Assembly: GCF_017352115.1 (NCBI RefSeq) | Contig: NZ_CP071448.1 | Location: forward strand, 992,001-1,056,000 | Length of the DNA: 64,000 nt | Reading direction: 5' to 3' | From: Flavobacterium endoglycinae | GTDB taxonomy: Bacteria; Bacteroidota; Bacteroidia; Flavobacteriales; Flavobacteriaceae | Shown here: piece after piece, positions 19,028 to 56,862 of the stretch | How positions within the stretch are numbered: position 1 is the stretch's first letter | Layout: each line of letters starts with the position of its first letter | Made by a program: the position numbers and the translations under genes | The notes under the pieces: model-generated | The model's input: only the letters and a program-made list of their open reading frames with translations | What the model was told of the DNA's origin: nothing | The model's database searches: none

Positions 19028-19308
19028 ATGAGAAATTTTGACTTTGAAGAATTTAACAATAATATTAATAAAAATCTTATTTCAGCACAAAAATTAATTA
19101 GTGTTATCGAAAACGTACAATGGGACGAAATCCCGATAGCGCGGATTTGTAATCCGTGCCCGCATAGATGAGCACATTCTTCTTCATTGATTTTCTTTAT
19201 GGGCACGGATTACAAATCCGCGCTAACGATTCTAAGAAAGTTGAACTTCGTACTTATTTACATAAGAAAAACCGTATTTTTGTTTTGTTCAAAATAGTAA
19301 CTTACTAA
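19028..19308 (+). pseudogene. small gene split by a palindromic repeat
   Basis: An ATG at 19028 opens a frame (MRNFDFEEFNNNINKNLIS...) that runs into the family C repeat at 19137 and stops inside it at 19169-19171. Beyond the repeat, from 19225, a different frame gives a protein-like tail (NDSKKVELRTYLHKKNRIF) ending at 19306-19308. Joined without the repeat, the two halves would make a continuous protein of about 60 residues (…ENVQWDE + NDSKKVELR…). I infer one small gene interrupted by the element. The original function is unknown. The stretch 18981-19366 holds nothing else. Confidence 0.5.
19137..19225. repeat. palindromic repeat, family C copy 1
   Basis: Perfect 25-bp inverted repeat (19137-19161 and 19201-19225; core GCGCGGATTTGTAATCCGTG) with about 39 bases between. 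The second copy is at 56142-56247. It appears inserted in a small coding region. Confidence 0.92.
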
Positions 19309-23800: not shown

Positions 23801-23847
23801 TTCTTTTGCATAATATAAGTTTCTTATGAAAATAACAAGATCTTATC

Positions 23848-23930
23848 TAGCCCCGATGGAAGCGATATCCTTTTGTGGCAATCTCCACAACAGTTGGAAG
23901 CCACAAAAGATTTAGCGTACAGCGGGACAG
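23848..23930. repeat. dispersed palindromic repeat, family D copy 1
   Basis: Begins TAGCCCCGATGGAAGCG and ends AGCGTACAGCGGGACAG. The inner arms ATCCTTTTGTGGC and GCCACAAAAGAT form a stem with one bulge. A diverged copy is at 45250-45329. From memory such elements are frequent in Flavobacterium intergenic DNA, but that was not checked here. Confidence 0.7.
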
Positions 23931-24036
23931 TTAGTTCTTGTAAAAATGAGACCATCTGCTCCTAAAAATAATTTTAAAAAAGGCATAGTTGTTGAAAGTT
24001 AAAAAAGATATATTTACACCTTCAAATGTGACTACT

Positions 24037-45128: not shown

Positions 45129-45249
45129 GATTAAAAATCATTATTAATTTAATTTAATAGTTTTAAAATCTAAATAAAAACGAAACAATTGATTAATTAT
45201 CTAAAACACTCTTTCTTTGACTGGAATTTCTTTTGAAAAACAAATGTCC

Positions 45250-45329
45250 TAGCCCTGATAGAAGTGGAAATCCTTTTGCTTTTTTCTTTAAAAAGTAAAA
45301 GATTGAAACGGATAGCAGGAAGCAGCTCC
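45250..45329. repeat. dispersed palindromic repeat, family D copy 2
   Basis: Begins TAGCCCTGATAGAAGTGGAA and ends GATAGCAGGAAGCAGCTCC, with the inner ATCCTTTTGCTTTTT facing AAAAAGTAAAAGAT. Diverged from the copy at 23848. Confidence 0.7.
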
Positions 45330-56141: not shown

Positions 56142-56247
56142 CCGATAGCGCGGATTTGCAATCCGTGCACGTAAAGTATATTTTTTTTTACTTATAATCT
56201 GTCCAATCCAATCTATGCGTGCACGGATTGCAAATCCGCGCTATCGG
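56142..56247. repeat. palindromic repeat, family C copy 2
   Basis: Perfect 29-bp inverted repeat (56142-56170 and 56219-56247; core GCGCGGATTTGCAATCCGTG) with a 48-base T-rich middle. Same element as at 19137-19225. Confidence 0.93.
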
Positions 56248-56445
56248 GTTGACGATTCTCTTTGCAGAATCCCGCGTGTGATTTCTCGTTCCTCGAAATG
56301 ACAAACTCTCTGGAAATTTACTTCCGTTTATCTTTTCTCAAAATAACGTTTTATATTTACCGTGCAGAGATGATTTACTGCAAGGAAATTATTTTTAAAT
56401 ATAATATTTTTCTTACTTAAAATATTTTTTTTGATATCTTTACAA

Positions 56446-56460
56446 TCCTAAACACAAAGA
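56446..56460 (+). promoter_or_regulatory. duplicated pre-start element, copy 1
   Basis: TCCTAAACACAAAGA, ending 2 bases before the ATG at 56463. The exact 15-mer recurs at 56565-56579, again ending 2 bases before an ATG. It probably sets translation start for both genes. A TATCTTTAC box ~10 bases upstream of copy 1 is a near-match to the -7 consensus. Confidence 0.6.
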
Positions 56461-56462
56461 AA

Positions 56463-56570
56463 ATGATATCAAAAAAACTTTTGCCCGTATGGTATGGTGG
56501 CGGTATTGGAAACAACTGCAACGCACTTTGTGGCGTAGGACACCTTAGCTGTACGGGTTTCTTTTCCTAA
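56463..56570 (+). CDS. small Gly/Cys-rich peptide (candidate precursor or leader peptide)
   Basis: 35 codons plus TAA. After a basic, hydrophobic start (MISKKLLPVWY) comes GGGIGNNCNALCGVGHLSC, with three Cys at residues 19, 23 and 30, and a short end TGFFS. It is locally richer in G+C than its surroundings. The YGGGIGNNCNALCGV stretch superficially recalls the YGNGVxC box of pediocin-like bacteriocins, but this may be coincidence. There is no LanB/LanM, radical SAM or transporter gene nearby. It may be a modified peptide precursor, a metal-binding peptide, or a leader peptide regulating the next gene. Family not recognised. Confidence 0.5.
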   Translation: MISKKLLPVWYGGGIGNNCNALCGVGHLSCTGFFS

Positions 56571-56579
56571 ACACAAAGA
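56565..56579 (+). promoter_or_regulatory. duplicated pre-start element, copy 2
   Basis: The same 15-mer as at 56446; it includes the stop codon of the peptide gene and ends 2 bases before the ATG at 56582. Confidence 0.6.
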
Positions 56580-56581
56580 TT

Positions 56582-56815
56582 ATGAGTATTAACACAATTT
56601 CACGAGAAACTGAAATTCGACTTTTGAATTTTTTCAGCGACAGAATCCTGCCCGAAGAAATGGCAAAAACACTAAGGCAGATTAATTTCACATTAGCTTT
56701 AGGCATTATGAGCGAGCACGAAACACTTCAAAATGAAATCGCAAAATTAAGAGACGGTTTATACTGGCTCAATGAATTAGCTGAAACTTTAAATCCTTAT
56801 TTGGATTTGGAGTAG
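56582..56815 (+). CDS. small helical protein encoded with the Gly/Cys peptide
   Basis: 77 residues, predicted wholly helical, acidic, soluble (ETEIRLLNFFSDRILPEEMAKTLRQINFTLALGIM; LRDGLYWLNELAETLNPYLDLE). Family not recognised. Only 11 bases separate it from the peptide gene, and the two share the pre-start element, so they are probably one transcription unit. A partner, immunity or regulatory role for the peptide is possible but unproven. A terminator follows at 56831. Confidence 0.6.
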   Translation: MSINTISRETEIRLLNFFSDRILPEEMAKTLRQINFTLALGIMSEHETLQNEIAKLRDGLYWLNELAETLNPYLDLE

Positions 56816-56830
56816 AAGTTTAAAAAATGA

Positions 56831-56862
56831 AAAACCTCGAATTAAAAAATCGAGGTTTCTTT
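56831..56862 (+). terminator. intrinsic terminator of the peptide unit
   Basis: AAACCTCGA/TCGAGGTTT stem, 15 bases after the stop at 56815, flanked by A and T residues. Confidence 0.85.

Follow-up and report, generated by a model that had tools for sequence, protein, structure and literature searches.

Within the window, by which we mean the whole stretch of 64,000 nucleotides that was analysed, a gene for a 77-residue acidic protein (56582 to 56815, with its stop codon at 56813 to 56815) lies between an MscS-type channel gene and, downstream, anmK; this gene and the cassette elements ahead of it are on the forward strand. A 35-codon ORF with three cysteines (56463 to 56570) ends 11 bases ahead of its ATG, and an exact 15-bp duplicate, TCCTAAACACAAAGA, is found at 56446 to 56460 (copy 1) and 56565 to 56579 (copy 2), 119 bp apart, each copy stopping 2 bases short of an ATG. 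These features had been noticed in an earlier, sequence-only reading of the window, and all are present. The terminator with which it closed the pair corresponds to a terminator-like hairpin at about 56831 to 56859, with arms AACCTCGA...TCGAGGTTTCTTT (laid out as AACCTCGA-attaaaaaa-TCGAGGTT followed by TTCTTT), which was read by eye because its 9-nt loop exceeds the limits of the scan; a similar hairpin lies 3' of the gene at the related loci L016 and L005. The immediate neighbours being a channel and AnmK, the remark that no modification enzyme or exporter is nearby also holds. A search for the repeat elsewhere in the 5.51-Mb genome, which had been suggested and which was run with its 14-mer core, returned exact matches at these two places only, and one-mismatch sites at about the level of a reversed-pattern control.

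Other repeats and RNAs occur in the window. Inverted copies of GCACGGATTGCAAATCCG, about 70 bp apart, lie upstream of the cassette at 56143 to 56247 and again at 19142 to 19220; a similar stretch also follows the cassette of L005, and the element is a dispersed palindromic repeat. Two Flavo-1 RNAs (RF01705), members of an orphan structured RNA family of Bacteroidetes, are found at 23845 to 23933 and 45247 to 45326.

The c4-2 RNA and its flanking targets

What looked like a 35-codon "peptide" ORF is a short structured RNA, a relative of phage P1 C4. The 78 nt from 56483 to 56560 match the Rfam family c4-2 (RF02944) over the full model (1 to 79) with 70.2 bits, against a gathering threshold of 41 bits, and c4-2 shares an Rfam clan, CL00128, with C4 and c4-a1b1. 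The fold has a closing stem (56483 to 56492 with 56549 to 56558), an inner stem (56496 to 56499 with 56541 to 56544) and two hairpins, and in a comparison of 12 sequences 12 of its 25 pairs show compensatory changes. It is on this covariation that the structural case rests, the whole leader having an unremarkable free-energy z-score. Searched by sequence and structure, the c4-2 model detected neither P1 C4 nor the hairpin of a viral contig discussed below (L236), and the links to these two therefore rest on architecture and on the Rfam clan. The architecture is that of a C4-type RNA: a length of 75 to 80 nt, a closing stem with two internal hairpins, and a loop and linker complementary to both flanking targets. 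The family is said to have been first described by Weinberg et al. in 2017; in the sources that we covered, which do not include that original account, we found no earlier description of its targets, partner genes or alleles.

Covariation lends very strong support to pairing between the RNA and both repeat copies. The RNA's specificity loop ACTTTGTG (56525 to 56532), the topological equivalent of P1 b', is antisense to CACAAAG in both copies, and its linker guide strand GTAGGA (56535 to 56540), the topological equivalent of P1 a', is antisense to TCCTA. Put together, loop CTTTGTG (56526 to 56532) and linker TAGGA (56536 to 56540) are antisense to TCCTAaaCACAAAG, which holds the TCCTA and CACAAAG parts of the repeat. 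The duplex is short, at 7 + 5 pairs, with a predicted energy of -14.5 kcal/mol for the guide and copy 2. We gathered 164 homologous sites from some 50 genomes of the genus, including 140 sites of the same type (type A) with distinct RNA sequences and 75 distinct loops, and most of these 140 carry flanking copies of a locus-specific sequence. Upstream flanks matched their own loop with a mean of 6.95, against 5.16 when permuted (z = 16.3), and downstream flanks with 6.84 against 4.78 (z = 18.1), in both cases with 0 of 20,000 permutations doing as well; control windows farther from the RNA gave z of 1.0 and 1.2. Predicted duplex energies were -13.5 kcal/mol for own and -8.9 kcal/mol for other pairings (z = -18, control 0). 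The duplicate is thus above chance, because flanking copies recur at most of the 140 sites and covary with the RNA loop.

The downstream match ends 2 to 3 nt before the ATG in 95 of 117 cases. The sequence-only reading had taken the duplicate for a shared translation signal or a duplicated regulatory site, and in part this stands: it is a regulatory element at a translation start. It is the target of the intervening RNA, however, and not a ribosome-binding consensus, since its sequence varies between cassettes and covaries with the loop. Translation in Bacteroidota often proceeds without Shine-Dalgarno sequences. A second type of RNA (type B, n = 8) precedes a different small protein, and its guide is antisense to the ATG and codons 2 and 3 in all eight. 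There the codons vary with the guide: ATG-ACT-AAA is found with TTTAGTCA, ATG-ACA-AAA (or ATG-ACA-AGA) with TTTTGTCA, and ATG-CAA-AAA with TTTTGCA.

Copy 1 appears to sit at the very start of the transcript. A base-frequency profile of 122 homologous upstream regions has a TAnnTTTG-like box that ends about 4 nt before copy 1, represented in the window by the predicted sigma-A -7 box TATCTTTA (56435 to 56442); in Flavobacterium psychrophilum the consensus TAnnTTTG lies at -12 to -5 (PMC9723704). From the box position and this spacing we infer a transcript start at copy 1, at about 56446 to 56447. Copy 1 would then form the 5' end, in the position of the annotated a1/b1 of phage P1, and copy 2 would be the counterpart of a2b2. 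At about two thirds of the sites with a copy-1 match, copy 1 leads into an ORF that has a start codon; it may be no more than a duplicate of the initiation region.

Private codes and alleles

A single Flavobacterium genome can have as many as eight cassettes, every one with a matching code of its own. The genome of the window has five of type A, whose loops are all different, and four of the five guides are predicted to bind their own downstream target best; for the guide of L001, in the same genome, predicted binding to other targets is about as good as to its own. Across 38 genomes, 115 of 141 guides match the target of their own cassette better than any other in the genome. With a private loop and target for each cassette, cassettes that share a genome would mostly not cross-regulate.

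The position between mscS and anmK is conserved as a cassette site in at least a dozen species. At this locus L164 and its kin have the guide CTTTGTG with CACAAAG in both flanks, and L156, L160, L166 and L168 have the guide TTGTAG with CTACAA in both flanks (both flanking genes were seen for L166 and L168); in L169, L170 and L174, where the anmK side was seen, the guide is GTCGTAG and the target CTACGAC. The proteins that flank L168 are very similar, 97% and 95% identical, and yet its code differs. At one syntenic position, species differ in their guide/target alleles, and the guide and both targets are switched together.

Some leaders have departed from this layout. In L158, L173, L175, L177, L178 and L179, mostly at the mscS-anmK locus, the c4-2 RNA is gone and TCCTAAACACAAAGA is kept about 120 nt before the 77-residue gene. 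In the three that were folded (L158, L173 and L177), TCCTAAA can pair in cis with TTTAGGA beside the start codon, with folding z-scores of -4.5 for L177, -3.4 for L158 and only -0.9 for L173, and it seems that a cis hairpin has replaced the antisense RNA. Elsewhere c4-2 RNAs are in tandem or closely spaced (L053, L074, L103, L116, L134, L136 and others), some without an intact gene behind them, possibly through duplication and decay.

The 77-residue protein and readings of the cassette

That the downstream gene is real, as had been supposed, and conserved is borne out by dN/dS values of 0.08 to 0.25 against its nearest homologues (median 0.18, 80 comparisons). Its acidic product is predicted to form a three-helix bundle (pLDDT 83). 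We found no relative of it in Pfam, NCBIfam, PHROGs, PADLOC or the PDB, and a fold search with the model against PDB and viral structures gave no match at E <= 0.001. Among 395 sampled genomes of the phylum, members of the family were detected in the genus alone, and its named relatives are nearly all from Flavobacterium. Of seven copies in the genome of the window, five follow c4-2 RNAs and two do not; the solitary two are L153 (2111935 to 2112150) and L154 (4181321 to 4181539), and upstream of one of them is a divergent ORF that by eye resembles an XRE-type regulator. At least three further families of small proteins are found behind other c4-2 RNAs. Profile comparison of two of these other families with the 77-residue protein and with each other detected no similarity, family look-ups of the other small proteins returned nothing usable, and the structure model of a family-2 protein is poor.

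Outside the genus, a sample of 237 genera of the family yielded c4-2 RNAs in 9, and related RNAs in other genera are accompanied by unrelated small proteins. For ten loci from other genera together with viral contig L236 (n = 11), the longest run complementary to the own flank is 7.9 nt upstream and 7.2 nt downstream, against 5.2 and 4.3 nt for flanks of other loci (0 of 20,000 permutations). A small ORF follows close behind the RNA in nine of the ten loci from other genera, L259 having none. Tyrosine recombinases precede L263 and L264, which have YefM-YoeB or PIN genes as neighbours. L265 to L267 are surrounded by phage-like genes; a named tail-protein match is seen for L266 alone, so L265 and L267 are assigned to phages by likeness.

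In the viral contig L236, a C4-like hairpin is followed by a relative of the 77-residue protein (35% identical to that of the window) and, 4 bases later, by an AntA/AntB antirepressor gene (E 1.6e-25), and the hairpin loop matches 11 nt over the start codon of the relative. In at least one virus, this order places the 77-residue family in the icd slot of a P1-like operon, without similarity to Icd. Among 2.9 million viral contigs only one other relative was found (L237), following a weak Bro-N match. No relative of the 77-residue protein was found upstream of seven other viral AntA loci, and no family-2 protein was found in the viral contigs. A protein search of phage and plasmid collections with the 77-residue protein gave no convincing match; a match in phage Goslar was rejected (E 0.2, without an adjoining antirepressor). 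A pattern scan of the viral contigs returned 12 contigs with one convincing c4-2-like RNA (53.7 bits), on IMGVR_UViG_3300035540_000181 (L280), where it lies near a tRNA-like end and is followed by a 67-residue ORF unlike the others.

We put at about four in five the probability that the locus is a C4-type antisense-RNA cassette whose RNA represses translation of the 77-residue gene; from position and by analogy, antisense repression of translation is the most likely reading. A single transcript would run from copy 1 through the c4-2 RNA and copy 2 into the 77-residue gene, and the RNA would be freed from it by processing or partial termination, with loop CTTTGTG and linker TAGGA exposed. By pairing with TCCTAaaCACAAAG immediately before the start codon, these would keep ribosomes from entering, both in cis on the RNA's own transcript and in trans on sister transcripts, such that the protein would be produced only while the RNA is in short supply or titrated away. 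As the 5' copy, copy 1 could act as a second target, as a1b1 does in P1. The protein itself is, by the same analogy, probably an effector that modulates growth or replication and has to be kept low; more narrowly, a growth-modulating effector, Icd-like or toxin-like, is our leading guess for its role, and a tentative one.

A related reading, with the same pairing, takes the cassette for a type-I-like toxin-antitoxin or addiction module, with the RNA as antitoxin and the 77-residue protein as growth inhibitor, that serves self-maintenance or defence. In the equivalent slot P1 has Icd, which inhibits host cell division (PMC8198154), and several copies per genome with private codes, one RNA chassis with interchangeable unrelated small proteins behind it, and the location of some cassettes on recombinase elements next to YefM-YoeB or PIN genes would all suit such a module, as would the cis hairpins that pair with the region before the start codon where the RNA is lost. 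The 77-residue protein is soluble-looking and acidic, however, unlike the classical hydrophobic type I toxins, and two solitary paralogues persist without the RNA, so that we regard a toxin-antitoxin module as a serious candidate but would sooner bet against it.

We think it unlikely that the cassette is a domesticated relic of phage immunity, its RNA acting mainly in trans on those transcripts of incoming phages that match it and the resident gene being a by-product or decoy. C4 mediates the heteroimmunity of P1 and P7, a related protein does occur next to Ant in a phage operon, and allele switching at a single locus resembles immunity groups; but purifying selection on the resident gene is clear, a search of 50,697 phage records found no near relative of the cassette, and of the 2.9 million viral contigs those two alone yielded relatives of its protein. 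Somewhat less likely again is that the RNA acts by terminating transcription, as the CI RNA of satellite phage P4 does on seqA and seqC. P4 too has complementary sites on both sides of its RNA, and the U-rich run after the c4-2 closing stem could itself terminate, but the downstream target lies 2 to 3 nt before the ATG, and covers it in type B and in the viral contig, a position that points to translation.

A Gly/Cys-rich bacteriocin-like or modified peptide, or a leader peptide controlling the small gene, both of which the sequence-only reading had proposed, is highly improbable, since, for all the start-codon ORFs that follow copy 1, neither frame nor length nor cysteines are conserved and the region is a structured RNA of which the ORF is a shadow. 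That reading had made conservation of the frame decisive, and among the 140 homologous sites the first leader ATG falls in phase 0, 1 or 2 relative to the RNA in 45, 6 and 41 and is absent in 48. ORFs in the phase of the window are 3 to 120 codons long, only three of 41 have three cysteines, and in the close relative L016 the same frame extends to 64 codons. Some caution is in order more generally, as GC-rich structured RNAs in AT-rich genomes can mimic Gly/Cys-rich small peptides.

Comparison with known systems

If the antisense-RNA cassette is the right reading, the orphan family c4-2 gains a target and a partner gene as well as a mechanism open to test, and the principle of P1 C4, hitherto tied to proteobacterial phages and their relatives, is carried into Bacteroidota chromosomes. 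The 75 natural loop/target pairs also provide a data set for the rules that govern how specific short antisense pairing is close to start codons. At somewhat less than even odds, we would go further and propose that Flavobacteriaceae have a modular, multi-allelic class of cassettes, unrecognised as a class, where a common antisense-RNA chassis, each time fitted with a private loop and two matching targets, controls interchangeable, unrelated small helical effectors, codes coexist within a genome, and alleles are exchanged at fixed sites as guide-target sets; this would be a C4-derived, RNA-coded system of toxin-antitoxin, immunity or discrimination.

The closest known system is the C4 RNA of P1 and P7 (RF01695) with a1b1 (RF03163), in the immI operon c4-icd-ant. 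C4 blocks translation of icd and ant, in the case of ant by pairing near its ribosome-binding site (PMC12197685), and its a' loop confers specificity (PMC5320573). The P1 record reads a1, b1, C4 (77 nt), a2, b2, icd (73 aa), ant1, and the order target, RNA, target, small gene (73 vs 77 aa) is shared, as are an RNA of 77 to 78 nt with a closing stem and two hairpins, guides formed by the second hairpin loop and the linker after it, a target copy adjoining the start of the small gene, and allele-specific loops. In contrast to immI, the cassette of the window has no ant gene, its target parts are 2 nt apart and its promoter is of the Bacteroidota kind, and the cassettes are chromosomal, several per genome, at syntenic housekeeping positions. 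The 77-residue protein is also unrelated to Icd: profile comparison found no similarity between them, and Icd matches NF033153 whereas the 77-residue protein matches nothing in NCBIfam. A search of the genome of the window found no AntA gene, and with neither Icd similarity nor AntA the output of the cassette cannot be copied from P1.

Satellite phage P4 offers a likeness of layout, in that its CI RNA is a processed RNA with a complementary site both upstream and downstream of it (seqA and seqC) in the same transcript (PMC4825925). The P4 RNA differs in acting through premature termination of transcription. Type III toxin-antitoxin systems (ToxIN) have a repeat-containing RNA gene upstream of a protein gene; the repeats of the window, in contrast, flank a single structured RNA as its antisense targets, and its short protein has no ToxN match. 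Acinetobacter baumannii, with its Group 1 C4-like sRNAs (PMC5320573), likewise has many chromosomal C4-like RNAs whose a' loops differ; their targets were unknown there, whereas in Flavobacterium the cognate target is found on both sides of the RNA. Finally, the RNA of the window is a member of Rfam c4-2 (RF02944, 70.2 bits), which the sources covered give only as a structured RNA family of the C4 clan, and to which the present analysis adds targets, partner proteins, covariation and alleles.
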